A stretch of DNA of 64,000 bases from Clostridiales bacterium (GTDB taxonomy: Bacteria > Bacillota > Clostridia > Saccharofermentanales > Saccharofermentanaceae). The stretch lies in NCBI GenBank assembly GCA_017551625.1, contig JAFZLF010000055.1:1-64000 (forward strand). Reading direction: 5' to 3'. A program made the position numbers and the translations under genes. The notes below the pieces were generated by a model that made no database searches, was not told the origin of the DNA, and saw only the letters and a program-made list of their open reading frames with translations. This document shows positions 56,396 to 64,000 of this stretch, piece after piece (the stretch's first letter is position 1; each line of letters begins with the position of its first letter).

Positions 56396-56424
56396 TTGAC
56401 CGAACTGTTCCTTGGCGGTAAAAT
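56396..56424 (+). promoter_or_regulatory. Promoter of the amino-acid decarboxylase gene
   Basis: TTGACC (56396-56401), 17-bp spacer, TAAAAT (56419-56424). Confidence 0.75.
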
Positions 56425-56492
56425 CCCTTTATACACCAGAGCCCATCGCGGCTTCTGGATACGATACGAATCACGACTGCCAAGGAGGCCGC

Positions 56493-58088
56493 ATGAACAC
56501 CCCGATTTGTGATTTTGTCAGAGAATACGCGGCGAAGGAAGCGATCCGTGCGCACATGCCCGGACACAAGGGAAGAGGCGATATCTTCGCTGTCGTTCCC
56601 GGGGATGAAACAAAAAACCAGTACGACGAATCTTTTTCCAGGATCACGAGATACGATATAACGGAGATCTCGGGTGCGGATGATCTATATTATCCGCATG
56701 GCATCATCGCAGAAAGCGAGGCAAACGCGTCGGAGGCTTTCCAATGTCCGACATATTACTCTACTGAGGGATCATCTCTTTGCATCCGGGCGATGCTGTA
56801 TCTGGCCATGATGAAGCAGCGGGAGGATCCCTCTCAATCAAATGCACGCGGTTCTCCTCCTTGGGTACTGGCTACGAGAAATGCACATAAATCTTTCGCA
56901 TCAGCGTGTATCCTTCTGGGCATCGACGTGGAGTGGCTCACTTCGGAGAAAACAGATGAGGAGGAAGAGCAGGTCGATTACACTTCGTTTAAGGAGAAAC
57001 TACCGGAGGCAATCGGCAGACACGGCTGCCTTCCGTGCTGTGTATACCTGACATCGCCGGATTATCTGGGCCGTTTTCTTGACATCGAGGGAATCTCGAA
57101 ACTTTGCCACGTCCGGGGAGTGACGGTCGTGGTCGATAATGCCCATGCCGCATACTCGTATTTTCTTTCCGGTCCCGATTATCGTTACGAGGATGACATG
57201 AGTCCTATCGCACAGGGAGCCGATATGTGTTGCGATTCCGCACACAAGACACTACCTGTTCTGACAGGAGGAGCATATCTTCATGTGAGGAAGGGATTTT
57301 TCCTGGGAAATGCTGATTATATGCCGCCATACCTGAGAACGACGGATGTGAACACCGCGTACAGGCAGGAAGAAAACACACGAAGAGTCAAGGAAGCGAT
57401 GGCGCTTTTTGCGTCTACGAGCCCGTCATGGCTGATATTGCAATCCCTCGACAAACAGAATCCATATCTGGACGGGGTATTCTTCAGAGACCTGGGAGAA
57501 ACCAAAATGCGGATAATGAGTCAGAAGTTTATCCTTGAAAAAGCCGGGTTTGAACTGATCGGCGACGATCCACTCAGGATCACTGTCAGAACGAGATCCT
57601 GGGGATATACCGGCTATGAATTTGCGCAGATCCTTCGTGATCCGACCGGGATCCGTACGTTAGAGGATGAGAACCCGGATGAGACCGAAAGCAAGGAAAG
57701 AAGCGAGATCAGACCGATCGAGGTGGAGTTTTCGGACCCGGACGTGGTCGTCCTGATGTTCTCCGTGAGAAATGCTTTCAAAGAAATCGATGAAGCAGGC
57801 GATCGGATCCTGAAGATCCGAAGACGCCTCCCACTCCTGCCGGCGCCTCTGCTAAGCAGCCGGCTCCCGGAAAAGGTCATGACGATGCGCGAGGCTGCAC
57901 TGCGACCGTATGAGATCGTCCCTGTCGGCGAAGCACTCGGGCGCATCGCACATGTGATGGATGTGACCTGTCCGCCGGCAGTCCCGATCGTGTTCCCCGG
58001 AGAACGGATCGGCGAGAAGGAAGTGGAACGTCTCTGCTATTACGGTTACAATGAGTGTAAAGTCTTGCGGGAAAATGTGACGAAGTGA
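56493..58088 (+). CDS. Orn/Lys/Arg decarboxylase family protein (fold type I)
   Basis: A 531-residue PLP enzyme of the SpeA-like biosynthetic branch of the Orn/Lys/Arg decarboxylase superfamily. It opens with RAHMPGHKGRGD, then DITEISGADDLYYPHG, the PLP-phosphate/aspartate motif VVVDNAHAA (D215), and the lysine motif DSAHKTLPVLTGGA (K252). The C-terminal domain is shorter than in inducible E. coli enzymes, as expected for this group. It likely feeds polyamine (agmatine or cadaverine) synthesis, but substrate cannot be read from sequence. The ATG at 56493 follows AAGGAGG by four bases. Confidence 0.88.
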   Translation: MNTPICDFVREYAAKEAIRAHMPGHKGRGDIFAVVPGDETKNQYDESFSRITRYDITEISGADDLYYPHGIIAESEANASEAFQCPTYYSTEGSSLCIRAMLYLAMMKQREDPSQSNARGSPPWVLATRNAHKSFASACILLGIDVEWLTSEKTDEEEEQVDYTSFKEKLPEAIGRHGCLPCCVYLTSPDYLGRFLDIEGISKLCHVRGVTVVVDNAHAAYSYFLSGPDYRYEDDMSPIAQGADMCCDSAHKTLPVLTGGAYLHVRKGFFLGNADYMPPYLRTTDVNTAYRQEENTRRVKEAMALFASTSPSWLILQSLDKQNPYLDGVFFRDLGETKMRIMSQKFILEKAGFELIGDDPLRITVRTRSWGYTGYEFAQILRDPTGIRTLEDENPDETESKERSEIRPIEVEFSDPDVVVLMFSVRNAFKEIDEAGDRILKIRRRLPLLPAPLLSSRLPEKVMTMREAALRPYEIVPVGEALGRIAHVMDVTCPPAVPIVFPGERIGEKEVERLCYYGYNECKVLRENVTK

Positions 58089-59256: not shown

Positions 59257-59315
59257 CTCAGAAGATGAACTGATCTGCGATCAAAAGAACTCAGAAGACG
59301 AACTGATACGCGATC
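59257..59315. repeat. Duplicated 26-bp sequence at the 3' end of the ydcF-like gene
   Basis: CTCAGAAGATGAACTGATCT...GATC (59257-59282) recurs with two differences at 59290-59315, where it encodes the final residues of the minus-strand gene. Period 33. Confidence 0.7.
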
Positions 59316-60082
59316 GCCAGGATCTCGCGGAGATAATTCGCGGGCAGGAGCCACCACGCCGTCGGCGCGCCGGCGCCGCCACAGCGGAGCCCCAGGTCAG
59401 ACGCGATCGTCTGTGCGCGGAATTCGTGCCAGGAATTGGTGACGATCACGGCGGTATCGCCGAGATCCTCGCGGTCCATGATCTCCTTACAGTACTTCAG
59501 ATTCTCGCGCGTGGTTGTCGAACGGTCCTCGAGAAAGAGCCTCTCGGGCGCGATACCGGAAGAAACCAGCGAATCGTACATGCACTGCGCCTCGGAGATA
59601 GCTTCATCCGGACCTTTCCCGCCGGAGAGGATGCATTTACAATCGGGATGCGAAACGAGATAGTCGTACGCAGTATCGATCCTGGCCTGAAGAAGCGTAC
59701 TGGCCCGACCGTCTCTGACCTGGCATCCGAGCACGATGACCACGGGCGGCTTCTCGGAATCAGGCGCTTCCCGATTGGCGTACATGACCATGAAGACTGT
59801 CTCGACGACCGTCAGGACGATTCCCGTAACGAGAAAAACAGCGACCACGATCAGGGCGGTACGTCCTGCGCCGGCTCTCTTCCAGACCGCCGCGATCCAC
59901 TTATGGACGCGTGGCATGAAGATCGCGTAGAGAAGAAGGAGTCCACAGGGAAACATCCCGAAAATCGCACCGACGCTTCGGCTCGCGCCGATGAGTAACA
60001 GTGTTACAAAGTTCAGAATAAGGGCGCTTGCAGCGATTCCTATCAGTAGACGCGGGATGAGACTCAGACTGAGGTGATGCAT
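59291..60082 (-). CDS. YdcF/DUF218 family membrane protein
   Basis: A 263-residue protein with three or four N-terminal helices (about 8-28, 35-55, 72-95) and a cytoplasmic or surface DUF218 domain: VVIVLGCQVRDGRAST, CILSGGKGPDEAISEAQ, LEDRSTTTRENLKYCKEI and VIVTNSWHEFRAQTIA. DUF218 proteins (YdcF, SanA, ElyC) bind nucleotides or envelope precursors and affect envelope integrity. It is the last gene of the Dlt-like operon, three bases after the SGNH gene. Confidence 0.85.
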   Translation of the reverse strand: MHHLSLSLIPRLLIGIAASALILNFVTLLLIGASRSVGAIFGMFPCGLLLLYAIFMPRVHKWIAAVWKRAGAGRTALIVVAVFLVTGIVLTVVETVFMVMYANREAPDSEKPPVVIVLGCQVRDGRASTLLQARIDTAYDYLVSHPDCKCILSGGKGPDEAISEAQCMYDSLVSSGIAPERLFLEDRSTTTRENLKYCKEIMDREDLGDTAVIVTNSWHEFRAQTIASDLGLRCGGAGAPTAWWLLPANYLREILAIAYQFVF

Positions 60083-60085
60083 CGT

Positions 60086-61039
60086 TCAGCCGACTTCTTC
60101 CATGAATTTTTCGTAGCACTCGTCCCAGGAAGCATAGTCCGGATCATCCTTGTGACTCTCCAGCAGACCGGAATCTACGAGATACTCGGTCAGATAGGCG
60201 GTCACTTTCTGCGCGCCGGGATAATTGAGGTGATCCCCTTTGTCGCGTGTTTCCGTCTCCCAGTCGATCGGGATCTCCTCAGTGAGAAGATTCATATCGA
60301 TATAATCGCAGTCGAGGCTATCGGCCAGAGACGATATGGCGTTATGACGGGCATAGCTCCAGTTCGCCGGACTGGGAACACTGATCAGGACGAGCTTCGC
60401 ATCATGCTTATCACAGTACCACTTCATCAGCTGGACACAGAGCTTGTTCCGAATACTCATTCTTTCTTCGGTCAGGGAGTGGGCCATGTAGTTGAGACCG
60501 TCGTCATCGCAGGCCTCGACGCGGGTGGAATACTCATATCCTTTATCGTTCACGATAAAGTCGTGCTCCACTTCAGAATAGAAATCATCTGCGTTCAGGT
60601 CCTTCCAGCGGTCGTGATACTGGAAGACGGGAAGTGCTTCACCGATAGCGGTGTAGAGGATATAGCCGGATTCCTGGGCGCGATAAGCGGCATCCATCTC
60701 GAGGAATACGATCTTAGGAGACTGGTTCTCGAAGACCCGCTGCAGCATGGTAAAAGAATAACTCAGACGCTGACCGGAAGATCCGCAGTTATAGCAGGTA
60801 TACCCTGTATCATTCCAGATCTGGAGAGGAATAACGGAACTATACAGTACACTGTCGCCGATGAAGAAAGCATCGATGCTGTTTTCCTTTTCCGCGAGAA
60901 AACCATTGGCATTCACTTCTTCCATTCCGGCTTCTTCCGAGTTTGACTTCGGGATGAAGATCTGGGAGGCGACCACGAGGAGGAAGACAAGCCCTGCCAG
61001 GAACACGAGTGCGGTAAAGATTCTTTTCAGATATTTCAT
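60086..61039 (-). CDS. SGNH/DltD-like membrane-anchored protein
   Basis: A 317-residue protein with an N-terminal membrane anchor (about 8-28) and an extracytoplasmic SGNH-type domain: FFIGDSVLYSS (Ser63), an oxyanion-type NCGSSGQRLS, and a C-terminal GDHLNYPGA (D269, H270). It is the usual partner of a membrane O-acyltransferase, as DltD is of DltB or AlgX of AlgI. It probably completes acyl or aminoacyl transfer to a cell-surface polymer. It lies 13 bases after the MBOAT gene. Confidence 0.85.
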   Translation of the reverse strand: MKYLKRIFTALVFLAGLVFLLVVASQIFIPKSNSEEAGMEEVNANGFLAEKENSIDAFFIGDSVLYSSVIPLQIWNDTGYTCYNCGSSGQRLSYSFTMLQRVFENQSPKIVFLEMDAAYRAQESGYILYTAIGEALPVFQYHDRWKDLNADDFYSEVEHDFIVNDKGYEYSTRVEACDDDGLNYMAHSLTEERMSIRNKLCVQLMKWYCDKHDAKLVLISVPSPANWSYARHNAISSLADSLDCDYIDMNLLTEEIPIDWETETRDKGDHLNYPGAQKVTAYLTEYLVDSGLLESHKDDPDYASWDECYEKFMEEVG

Positions 61040-61052
61040 ATGACCGCGCCTC

Positions 61053-62651
61053 CTAGAAATTCGCGTAGATCGGATCGAGCGGGATATAGCCCGTGCCGTA
61101 TGCGCCGAAGATGATGATGAACAATATGAGTGCGTAGAATATCGCGAACTGAAGAACGATATTTCTTCGTGCGATGGCCTCGCGGATATGCACGCCCTTC
61201 TCCTGTATCAGTCCGATCACGAAGAGGATGAGCACGGCGACACCGATGATGATGAAGTCCGGTTTATCCATGCCGTAGGTAAAGATCGCTCCATCGCTGA
61301 CCGGCGCGAAAGATCTGTCCGTGAAGATCTTGAGGAACATGGCAAAACCGGTGCGGAGTCCTTCCGCGCGGAAGAACAGCTCGCCGATCATCACGAGGAT
61401 CGTAGTGCGCACGATCTGGAAACACTTATATGGGAGACAGGTCCTCTTGATGTGCAGCTTCTGCGTGACCTTGATGACCAGCGGCTCGATCGTACTTCCG
61501 ATCAGGATCAGCACGAAGTGATACATGCCGAAGAAGATGTAATTCCAGCCTGCGCCGTGCCACAGACCGTTGAAGAGCCATACGCAGAAGAGCGCGATCG
61601 CGCCGGAAAGCAGAGGCCCGAAATGGTTGCCGAGCTTCTTTCTAGCCTTAGTGGTCAGCTTCTTCAGAGGTTTGGACATGGAAAGAGGGTAGAAGACATA
61701 GTCCTTAAAGAACGTGCCGAGCGTGATGTGCCAGCGCTGCCAGAACTCGGAGATCGTCGCGGAGAAGAACGGACGTCTGAAGTTCTCGGGGAGCTTGACA
61801 CCGAAGATCTGCGCGCTTCCGATGACCACATCCATGGTCCCGGAGAAATCACAGTACAGCTGGATCGTATAGAAGACCGCACTGATCGCGATCACGATCC
61901 CCTCATAGTCGTTGTAGCTCGCGAAGACATCCTTGATCAGGATGTTGAGACGGTCCGCGATGACGAGCTTCTTCATGACACCGTAGAGGATCCGCTGTCC
62001 GCCCTGGATCAGCGCGCTGTACTTGATCCTCTCAGCCTGCCACAGGCTCTCCGCGGTATCGGAATACCGGCAGATCGGACCTTCCATGATCTGAGGGAAG
62101 AAACTCATGAACATCGCCAGTCGCAGGAGATTCCTGTCTGCGGGGATCTTCTGGCGGTACACGTCGAAGAGGTAGGATACGGCCTGAAGAGTATAAAAAG
62201 ATATGCCGATCGGCACCAGAAGCCTCGGTGTCGGGAGCGTCAGGGAGATGCCCGCAAGATCGAAAAGTGCGTTGATGTTTCCGATCGTAAATGGCGTATA
62301 CTTCAGGACGAAAAGTGTCCCCACATGGAGGAAAACAGCGAAGCACATGATGCCGCGCAACCTCTTCTGATACGAAGCGGACAGCGCTTTTTTCTCTTCT
62401 TTGGGGATCTCTTTCATCTTGAGTTTGCACTCGGCCTGCACATCAGACAGCCACAGTCCGATGTGGTGCACAGACAGTGTCGACAGCATGAGGTAGATGA
62501 CCAGTTTCCGGCTGATCAGGAAGAAAAAAAGGTAACTAAAGAGGAGCAGCACCCAGCGGCGTGCCCTCTTAGGGAAAACCTCATAAAGCAGTATTGCGCC
62601 GAGAAGCAGCAATACATATGCCATCGAAAAATAGGTCGAGATCGTGAACAT
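61053..62651 (-). CDS. MBOAT-family acyltransferase (DltB/AlgI-like)
   Basis: A 532-residue polytopic protein of 10-12 helices. The catalytic histidine motif is LWHGAGWNYIFFG (H365), and the family motifs FMSFFPQIMEGPICRY, YTIQLYCDFSGTMDV and FWQRWHITLG (H308) are present. These proteins pass an acyl group from a cytoplasmic carrier across the membrane. A carrier-protein gene ends one base before its start, and an SGNH partner follows, giving a DltC-DltB-DltD-like order. The group transferred is unknown; the decarboxylase at the operon's head suggests an amine-containing one. Confidence 0.92.
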   Translation of the reverse strand: MFTISTYFSMAYVLLLLGAILLYEVFPKRARRWVLLLFSYLFFFLISRKLVIYLMLSTLSVHHIGLWLSDVQAECKLKMKEIPKEEKKALSASYQKRLRGIMCFAVFLHVGTLFVLKYTPFTIGNINALFDLAGISLTLPTPRLLVPIGISFYTLQAVSYLFDVYRQKIPADRNLLRLAMFMSFFPQIMEGPICRYSDTAESLWQAERIKYSALIQGGQRILYGVMKKLVIADRLNILIKDVFASYNDYEGIVIAISAVFYTIQLYCDFSGTMDVVIGSAQIFGVKLPENFRRPFFSATISEFWQRWHITLGTFFKDYVFYPLSMSKPLKKLTTKARKKLGNHFGPLLSGAIALFCVWLFNGLWHGAGWNYIFFGMYHFVLILIGSTIEPLVIKVTQKLHIKRTCLPYKCFQIVRTTILVMIGELFFRAEGLRTGFAMFLKIFTDRSFAPVSDGAIFTYGMDKPDFIIIGVAVLILFVIGLIQEKGVHIREAIARRNIVLQFAIFYALILFIIIFGAYGTGYIPLDPIYANF

Positions 62652-62652
62652 C

Positions 62653-62886
62653 TCAGCCCTCTTCTTGCAGGCGTACGATCATTTTCCACATATTCTCGGC
62701 GGAATTAAAATTCTCCGGGATGATCTCTACCGTCGGGATGGTCACGTCAAAGGCCTCCTCGAGCTCGGCCACCAGCGAGATGATCGCCAGGGAATTGAGG
62801 TAGTGATCGTCGATCAGCGTCGTGCACGTGTGATAGTCCACTTCCGGCTGAATATCCTCTAAGATCTCAAATAATTTCTCGTCCAT
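62653..62886 (-). CDS. Acyl/aminoacyl carrier protein (DltC-like)
   Basis: A 77-residue acidic four-helix protein with the phosphopantetheine site DDHYLNSLAIISLV (Ser32). The canonical DSL is NSL here, an uncommon substitution, though the serine is kept. It resembles DltC-type stand-alone carrier proteins rather than fatty-acid AcpP. The ribosome site is AAGGAGATA. It lies between the PLP decarboxylase and MBOAT genes, so its cargo is probably an amino-acid derivative. Confidence 0.88.
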   Translation of the reverse strand: MDEKLFEILEDIQPEVDYHTCTTLIDDHYLNSLAIISLVAELEEAFDVTIPTVEIIPENFNSAENMWKMIVRLQEEG

Positions 62887-62989
62887 TTTTGTATCTCCTT
62901 ACATTTATTTCCCTTGTTCCTATCTTGATCCACACCAGTTCACTTCTTCACGAGATGAACTGTTCCCCCCCGTGTGTTCTCGATGCTTT

Positions 62990-64000
62990 CTAACTCTTAG
63001 GCATATTAAACTGTGCCGTCTCGATGTGTTCCCTCGCGACGGTTTCCTGCCCGTTTGCGCCTAATAGAATAACACGCGGAAGCTCTCTGCTCAAGAACAG
63101 CGAGATGCCTTCTGTCGGACAGTAGGCGCCCGCGCGCTCGAAAACCAGTATATCCCCGATGTCAAGCCCCGGCAGCGGGAGCTTCTTGACCAGAAAATCG
63201 TTGATCGTGCACAGCGATCCGCAGATGTTCCAGTCCTGCGTCTCCGCTCCGGAAGATGTTTCCGCGCCCTGCGCGAAAAGACGGATCTTTGGGTGCTTCA
63301 TGGCCATGAACTGGCCGTAGTAGACGATCTGGTGCATGCCGCCGTCCACGATAGCGTAGTTCTCGCCGCAGTTTCTCTTCGTGTCGACGACCGAAGTCAG
63401 ATAGGTGCCACAGCTCGCAGCGATACTGCGGCCGACTTCGAGCGCGATCTTTCCTTCGAAAGCCATGCCGGTAAGAAGGGAAGAGAACTCGGCAAGGAAT
63501 GCATCCTCTTCGAAGGTCTCGCCCTCGAAGTAGGCGACCGGGAATCCCGTGCCGTACTCGAGTTTCCTCGTCTCAAAACCATATTCCGCGCGCAGATCCG
63601 CGATGAACTGATCGACATAGTCGAGTTCGCGCTTCAGTTTCTTTAGAGAATTCTTCTGCGTGCCCGAGAAATACTGTATCCCGCAGATATCGATCCACGG
63701 ATCGTCCTTATAGTCGCGCACGATCGCCATAAGATCTTCCTTATCAAGACCGAACTGGTTTCCGGATGTCAGGCGGAGAAGCGCCGTGATGCGGCGCTGT
63801 GCCTTCTCGGCGCCATTTCTGAGCAGGTGGAACTGGCTTACGGACTCAGCGGTGTAGTAGCCGACCGGATCTTCGGATGCGATCGAATCTTCGATGAAGT
63901 CCGCCTGCTTATTTACGCCGGAAACGACATACATGCCGTGCGGGATGCCGAACTTCTCGCAGATCCGGTACTCACCGGGCGAGCAGATCTCGAGAAGATC
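62990..64000 (-). CDS. PLP-dependent decarboxylase, fold type III (partial, N-terminus beyond window)
   Basis: Visible are 336 C-terminal residues; the frame runs open to the edge (LLEICSPGEYRICEKFGIPHG is the first visible part). It belongs to the DAP/ornithine decarboxylase fold-III group: a barrel part with FGLDKEDL and GIQYFSGTQ, EVGRSIAASCGTYLT, and the C-terminal CGSLCTINDFL and ERAGAYCPTEG motifs. The SLCT form of the active-site cysteine motif is closer to BtrK-like and exosortase-associated decarboxylases than to LysA (CESGD). BtrK decarboxylates an amino acid while it is attached to a carrier protein, and a carrier-protein gene follows here. Confidence 0.85.
   Translation of the reverse strand, partial: DLLEICSPGEYRICEKFGIPHGMYVVSGVNKQADFIEDSIASEDPVGYYTAESVSQFHLLRNGAEKAQRRITALLRLTSGNQFGLDKEDLMAIVRDYKDDPWIDICGIQYFSGTQKNSLKKLKRELDYVDQFIADLRAEYGFETRKLEYGTGFPVAYFEGETFEEDAFLAEFSSLLTGMAFEGKIALEVGRSIAASCGTYLTSVVDTKRNCGENYAIVDGGMHQIVYYGQFMAMKHPKIRLFAQGAETSSGAETQDWNICGSLCTINDFLVKKLPLPGLDIGDILVFERAGAYCPTEGISLFLSRELPRVILLGANGQETVAREHIETAQFNMPKS

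Follow-up and report, generated by a model that had tools for sequence, protein, structure and literature searches.

A widespread Dlt-like gene cassette that may decarboxylate an amino acid on its carrier protein

Gene layout and conservation of the cassette

The window analyzed here is a stretch of 64,000 nucleotides, bases 1-64000 of a contig (C59) from a Clostridiales genome of 3.18 Mb in 66 contigs. Its right-hand end contains, on the minus strand, a group of genes which resembles the dlt operon and which additionally encodes a fold-III decarboxylase dependent on pyridoxal phosphate (PLP). A preliminary description of the window had listed five minus-strand genes, from this decarboxylase to a YdcF protein, and all of them were confirmed in the sequence with their positions and with their intergenic gaps of 103 bp (decarboxylase-carrier), 1 bp (carrier-MBOAT), 13 bp (MBOAT-SGNH) and 3 bp (SGNH-YdcF). 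It had also proposed, as a test, to look for an adenylation gene within several kb to the right of position 64000. Indeed, a DltA-like gene is located just past the window end, 13 bp upstream of the decarboxylase gene. The order of transcription is adenylation enzyme, decarboxylase, carrier, MBOAT, SGNH and YdcF, and the features are as follows:

64194-65759 (window-equivalent, outside the window; L011:6195-7760), DltA-like adenylation gene, 521 amino acids (PF00501)
62990-64180 (window-equivalent; L011:4991-6181), minus strand, full decarboxylase gene, 396 amino acids, completed with DNA past the window edge
62990-64000, minus strand, 3′ part of this gene in the window, fold-III PLP decarboxylase (Pfam Orn/DAP/Arg decarboxylase; BtrK 2j66; active-site residues)
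62653-62886, minus strand, DltC-like carrier, 77 amino acids, phosphopantetheine Ser in LNSL (PF00550, weak DltC match)
61053-62651, minus strand, DltB-like MBOAT protein, 532 amino acids, with the C-terminally fused acyl-shuttle motif PIYANF (PF03062; TIGR04091 150 bits, under cut-off)
60086-61039, minus strand, SGNH acyltransferase-type protein, 317 amino acids, one N-terminal helix, Ser of GDS and His of DxxH (AlphaFold2 fold)
59291-60082, minus strand, YdcF/DUF218 membrane protein, accessory (PF02698)

A scan of contigs from GTDB species with an alignment of the decarboxylase yielded at least 562 confirmed relatives, and the gene neighborhoods of the best 80 of these, all from named genomes, were surveyed. 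The adenylation gene adjoins the decarboxylase gene in all 80 loci, in one of which the decarboxylase frame was missed by the script, and many of these pairs overlap by 4 bp. The exact order adenylation enzyme, decarboxylase, carrier, MBOAT and SGNH is present in 58 loci, with the remaining ones representing mostly contig ends or small rearrangements. Given the constant pairing and the frequency of the five-gene order, the arrangement does not result from chance. Searches at the level of family, order and class found the decarboxylase family in several bacterial families with the same gene set in its neighborhoods. According to the labels of the records, hosts among the clostridia include Oscillospiraceae, Lachnospiraceae, Ruminococcaceae, Catenibacillus, Pseudoflavonifractor, Agathobaculum and Acetobacterium, those among the Coriobacteriia Collinsella, Enorma, Thermophilibacter, Atopobium and Eggerthellaceae, and a further host is Traorella. 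Catenibacillus scindens DSM 106146 is an example of a culturable strain that carries the cassette. The YdcF gene, described earlier as a member of the operon, does adjoin the locus; it was, however, seen only in the genus of the window and is lacking in the other cassettes examined. The conserved unit thus consists of five genes, and YdcF is an addition at the genus level.

In 21 of 77 loci, the cassette is immediately preceded on its own strand by genes for a histidine kinase and a response regulator of the OmpR type. Systems that sense antimicrobial peptides and control dlt are a known parallel, and by analogy these two-component genes may be tied to a similar control.

Active-site residues and motifs of the cassette proteins

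The decarboxylase carries the C-terminal domain PF00278, which is the one of decarboxylases, and not PF00842; a weak match to Ala_racemase_N was also obtained with Pfam. It scores 161 bits with the exosortase-associated model TIGR03099 (cut-off 478.45) and 152 bits with the LysA model TIGR01048 (cut-off 297.9). Its nearest solved relative is BtrK (2j66; E 3.4e-26), and the PLP Lys, the E-x-G-R motif, Cys-xxx-Asp and Tyr are retained. What sets the cassette enzymes apart from LysA are the stacking position and the CES position, which are Phe/Tyr and Thr/Ser in all 46 sampled cassette decarboxylases, whereas LysA proteins of relatives have His at the former (23 of 23) and Glu at the latter (22 of 23), residues found in none of the 46. 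BtrK, VinO-type proteins from Streptomyces and exosortase-type proteins display Phe/Tyr and Thr/Ser like the cassette enzymes. On sequence grounds, the decarboxylase agrees in its active-site residues with carrier-dependent enzymes such as BtrK and the VinO type and not with LysA, which bears out the earlier assignment to the BtrK type rather than the LysA type. In the tree, the cassette enzymes form one clade (100/100) which adjoins VinO-type proteins (95/92), though long branches meet there. A grouping with BtrK was disfavored by the approximately unbiased (AU) test (p 0.023). Some of the nearest named relatives are encoded on plasmids beside AMP-binding, cobalamin-dependent and methylaspartate mutase genes in polyketide clusters, which is the vicenistatin arrangement; others belong to an exosortase-type pair of adenylation enzyme and decarboxylase close to glycosyltransferases. 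Two other identities were considered for the decarboxylase. Membership of LysA or of a lysine operon was rejected in view of the residues, the cut-off and a separate LysA homolog in the genome (C43), whereas the tree by itself would allow a sister relation. An alanine racemase was rejected in view of PF00278 in place of PF00842 and of a separate Alr (C41).

The adenylation enzyme exceeds the cut-off of the amino-acid adenylation model TIGR01733 with 335 bits, which argues against a carrier that takes only fatty acyl groups. With the DltA model TIGR01734 it reaches only 295 bits (cut-off 559.85) and with the model of the exosortase-A ligase, TIGR03098, 181.6 bits (cut-off 592.35). Its ten-letter pocket code is DVKALSLCNK in 79 of 96 loci and nearly identical in the remainder. 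The corresponding codes are DLMTLCTVAK for DltA, DYYVTTQRIK for VinN-type enzymes (represented by two Streptomyces proteins, L188 and L191, as stand-ins for VinN) and DASVATMRSK for the exosortase-type ligase, none of which contains the Lys found at position 239 of the cassette enzyme, where it is residue Lys222. The residues Leu, Met and Cys of the D-Ala pocket of DltA are replaced by Val, Lys and Ser, and a classical DltA is ruled out by this pocket together with the cut-off. A Foldseek search with a model of the enzyme did not discriminate.

A second cassette in the same genome (C13, L178:5820-10085) turned out to be informative with regard to this pocket. It lacks a decarboxylase and consists of genes for an Asp/Glu-family racemase, an adenylation enzyme, a carrier and an MBOAT protein. 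Cassettes of this type occur in many genomes and are common in the class (L179, L193-L211), usually with an SGNH gene. The racemase matches TIGR00035 (asp_race), with the cysteate racemase CuyB just over the cut-off, and the adenylation enzymes of this type have the code DAKVAGLGMK in 22 of 22 cases. Lys239 is therefore common to both types and goes with an acidic amino acid, which the racemase supplies in one type and the decarboxylase would consume in the other. Lys239 is also part of the L-Glu code DAKDLGVVDK, of which no printed confirmation was found in the open-licence literature. Differences between the two pockets include Ala to Val at position 236 and Gly to Ser at position 301 in the decarboxylase type. 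VinN has bulkier residues at these two positions (F231, S299), which were linked to the loading of β-amino acids, and A236V was fixed in all engineered β-Phe variants of TycA (PMC11253843). Judged by its residues, the pocket supports an acidic substrate, and the changes at 236 and 301 would fit a substrate held as a β-amino acid, that is, Asp bound by its β-carboxyl group.

The residues required of the remaining three proteins are almost invariably conserved: the phosphopantetheine Ser of the carrier in 91 of 91 loci, the MBOAT His in 93 of 93, the C-terminal shuttle Tyr in 91 of 91, and Ser and His of the SGNH protein in 90 and 89 of 91, respectively. The MBOAT protein reaches 150 bits with the DltB model TIGR04091, compared with a cut-off of 375, and its C-terminus is PIYAxF or PMYAxF in almost every named locus. 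This ending corresponds to the acyl-shuttle hexapeptide FxYxxF, whose Tyr was shown to carry the acyl group in DltX and in PatA, the latter ending with FIYANF in N. gonorrhoeae (PMC12148441). Four clostridial DltB proteins lack a C-terminal shuttle motif, and three control dlt operons each contain a small DltX-like open reading frame with the ending FTYAEF, FTYSEF or FVYSQF. The same test, positive in all three controls, found no small motif-bearing frame in L011. The previously proposed likeness to Dlt parts thus holds for the overall logic, but the MBOAT protein differs from DltB in carrying the DltX motif itself. In MBOAT/SGNH pathways other than Dlt the motif is on the MBOAT protein and a carrier is absent (PMC12148441), evidently as these pathways use acyl-CoA; the cassette, in contrast, has a carrier and also the motif fused to its MBOAT protein. 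The SGNH protein has no match in Pfam and none to the DltD family. Its AlphaFold2 model (pLDDT 88) displays the SGNH fold, with structural matches that include DltD (6pfx, Foldseek E 6.5e-6) and PatB (7tjb, Z 12.8), and MBOAT-SGNH pairs with a shuttle Tyr are described to acylate envelope polymers (PMC12148441).

Proposed reaction sequence and competing explanations

From the gene set and the residues we infer a substrate, an order of steps, an acceptor and a function. The adenylation enzyme would activate an acidic amino acid, likeliest L-Asp and next L-Glu, at the side-chain carboxyl group and load it onto the carrier. The decarboxylase would then strip the free α-carboxyl group by PLP chemistry, which would give β-alanyl-carrier from Asp or γ-aminobutyryl-carrier, i.e., γ-aminobutyric acid (GABA) on the carrier, from Glu. 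Next, the MBOAT protein would transfer the acyl group across the membrane to the Tyr of its own PIYANF motif, from where the SGNH protein would accept it on its Ser and esterify a surface polymer with it. The outcome would be a cationic group comparable to D-Ala. By general chemistry, the amine of a β- or γ-amino acyl group is more basic than that of D-Ala, and its ester is less labile. BtrK is known to decarboxylate γ-linked Glu on a carrier. Loading by the side chain is required in this sequence, since an α-thioester leaves no free α-carboxylate for a PLP decarboxylase. The preliminary description, which had likewise proposed loading, decarboxylation and transfer within a Dlt-like logic, is supported in order and logic and left this requirement unsaid. 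For VinN and VinO the sequence of loading and decarboxylation is proven with β-linked 3-methyl-Asp, where the thioester is needed before decarboxylation (PMC11284099). Taken together, a Dlt-like aminoacylation of the surface with decarboxylation on the carrier is the probable function of the cassette, and the carrier is also the probable site of the decarboxylation when this step is considered by itself. With respect to the substrate, Asp has about an even chance, and Glu is possible but only about half as likely.

Several observations weigh against this interpretation. The adenylation enzyme belongs to a clade far from VinN and can be ruled out as its ortholog; the short VinN loop with Lys330/Arg331 is absent from it, the loop being of normal length with Cys/Asn instead. 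The adenylation enzymes of the decarboxylase and the racemase type form separate clades, and as each type is one clade, the pocket comparison represents a single contrast and not many. The preliminary description had singled out a clustering of the decarboxylase with true LysA as a point on which its proposal could fail; the residues and the separate LysA homolog speak against it, but the tree alone leaves a sister relation, as a joint clade with LysA was not rejected by the AU test (p = 0.218). Concerning the acceptor, glycerophosphotransferases (Glyphos_transf) exceed the cut-off in only 10 of 19 cassette genomes. Finally, one cassette genome (G155) encodes a DltA of 488 bits with its own carrier and DltB.

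The best surviving alternative is that the decarboxylase precedes the adenylation enzyme and converts free aspartate or glutamate, so that β-alanine or GABA is loaded ready-made, which would leave the end product unchanged. Many fold-III decarboxylases use free amino acids, and in the case of incednine IdnL3 makes the β-amino acid before loading (PMC11284099). However, β-alanine and GABA lack a second carboxylate, and yet the pocket retains Lys239, as does that of the racemase type; the decarboxylase has carrier-type residues, and the precedent of VinN and VinO needs the thioester before decarboxylation. This order of events appears unlikely. Even less probable is a conventional operon for D-alanylation, with the PLP protein as a racemase that supplies D-Ala. 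The generally dlt-like layout and the weak Ala_racemase_N match would agree with this, but not the PF00278 domain in place of PF00842, the genome's own Alr, the exchange of the D-Ala pocket residues Leu, Met and Cys for Val, Lys and Ser or the adenylation score far below the DltA cut-off. It is very improbable that the decarboxylase converts diaminopimelate, free or carrier-bound, to lysine and that a lysyl group is put on the surface: it does belong to the wider LysA fold family, with a sister relation left by the AU test, but it has Thr/Ser and Phe/Tyr where LysA has Glu (CES position) and His (stacking position), a separate LysA homolog is present, and Lys239 should repel a lysine side chain. 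Equally slight is the chance of a small pathway for a natural-product starter unit instead of a surface modification, since the cassette contains no ketosynthase or condensation gene and has an MBOAT protein with shuttle Tyr and an SGNH protein as constant partners, although the closest named relatives of the decarboxylase serve polyketide clusters and a large nonribosomal peptide synthetase (NRPS) cluster is located on another contig.

The probable on-carrier decarboxylation for surface aminoacylation can also be compared with known systems as a whole. With the Dlt pathway (DltA, DltB, DltC, DltD, DltX) the cassette shares an adenylation enzyme, a small carrier, MBOAT and SGNH proteins in one operon and the acyl-Tyr shuttle motif; it differs by the additional decarboxylase, by a pocket that is not for D-Ala, by the motif fused to the MBOAT protein instead of a DltX frame and by scores far below the Dlt family cut-offs. 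The VinN-VinL-VinO system of vicenistatin and the FlvN-type system of fluvirucin load Asp or 3-methyl-Asp by the β-carboxyl group and decarboxylate it on the carrier with a fold-III enzyme whose residues agree with those found here, whereas the cassette has a non-orthologous adenylation enzyme, no methylaspartate mutase and no polyketide synthase, and its product would go to MBOAT and SGNH proteins. On-carrier decarboxylation would also be shared with BtrI-BtrJ-BtrK of butirosin, in which BtrJ is an ATP-grasp ligase; the carrier of the cassette would, in contrast, be loaded by an adenylation enzyme, and a grouping of the decarboxylase with BtrK alone is disfavored, as stated above. The exosortase-A-associated set (TIGR03098, TIGR03099) likewise has adjoining adenylation and decarboxylase genes and a carrier near polysaccharide genes, but the cassette scores far below both cut-offs, the pocket code is a different one, and no MBOAT or SGNH gene is annotated beside the two exosortase loci examined. 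O-acetylation of peptidoglycan by PatA/PatB resembles the cassette in the fused C-terminal shuttle Tyr (FIYANF in NgPatA, PIYANF here) and in the SGNH partner, with the difference that PatA takes acetyl-CoA without a carrier. The cassette is thus Dlt-like in its working, yet it falls outside the dlt operon, the VinN-type enzymes, LysA and the exosortase set. No description of such a cassette was found in the open-licence literature, which is weak evidence of novelty.

Related cassettes, acceptor and possible significance

Apart from the decarboxylase type, the racemase-type cassette apparently represents a separate undescribed surface modification. A third type with the order adenylation enzyme, GNAT acetyltransferase, carrier and MBOAT was observed in eight loci (L212, L215, L217, L218, L222, L224, L227, L228), with codes that mostly retain Lys or Gln at position 239 together with Asp at position 331. 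Three further loci (L223, L225, L226) contain tandem adenylation genes ahead of carrier and MBOAT, an arrangement that would suit the loading of a dipeptide or of two amino acids. Adenylation enzymes without the amino-binding Asp235 (code SMLVLALDIK) are encoded in cassettes of adenylation enzyme, carrier, MBOAT and SGNH (L214, L216, L221); to judge from this code, they perhaps load a hydroxy acid or another acid. Among the decarboxylase cassettes, four (L118, L121, L123, L124) include two MBOAT-SGNH pairs, and one (L145) lies on a 595-kb contig labeled Streptococcus suis SSHP-D, a species label that looks doubtful. Near the cassette of the window, on the opposite strand, a gene of the PF01276 Orn/Lys/Arg-type decarboxylase family is located (56412-58088, plus strand), with no link shown. 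The NRPS cluster mentioned above (contig C50) comprises about 14 adenylation matches and one open frame of 8463 amino acids. A promoter scan yielded nothing exceeding chance, and PADLOC gave zero matches.

As to the acceptor, genes for a CDP-glycerol glycerophosphotransferase, a cytidylyltransferase, an asparagine-synthase-like protein and a polysaccharide flippase are situated 3-7 kb upstream (L011:10515-14809, window-equivalent 68514-72808) and possibly constitute a local polymer locus. Homologs of TagB/F or TagD were detected in none of the 77 other cassette loci, and sulfatase-type proteins of the LtaS superfamily are encoded in 15 of 19 cassette genomes. The polymer that receives the acyl group could be something other than a classical teichoic acid.

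D-alanylation of teichoic acids sets the surface charge and the resistance to cationic antimicrobial peptides. No classical DltA over the cut-off was found in any of the 19 cassette genomes, so the cassette may do the job of D-alanylation with another acyl group. Cassette genomes and genomes with a classical dltA did not overlap among 391 genomes; as chance predicts about 0.6 overlaps, this mutual exclusion is not significant.

The cassette would unite two chemistries which are known separately, the on-carrier decarboxylation of antibiotic pathways and the acyl-Tyr shuttle of MBOAT/SGNH systems, and it has a carrier alongside its fused motif, whereas fused motifs go with acyl-CoA donors elsewhere (PMC12148441). 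In our view the evidence is evenly balanced on a wider reading, according to which gut Clostridia and Coriobacteria share a widespread undescribed surface modification, with polymers bearing β-alanyl or GABA esters that arise on a Dlt-like carrier by decarboxylation of Asp or Glu attached through the side chain, and according to which this modification belongs to a group of Dlt-like systems running in parallel (decarboxylase, racemase, GNAT and double-adenylation type) that have their own codes and jointly replace classical D-alanylation. If this is true, β-alanine or GABA would be present in the gut in a wall-bound form.

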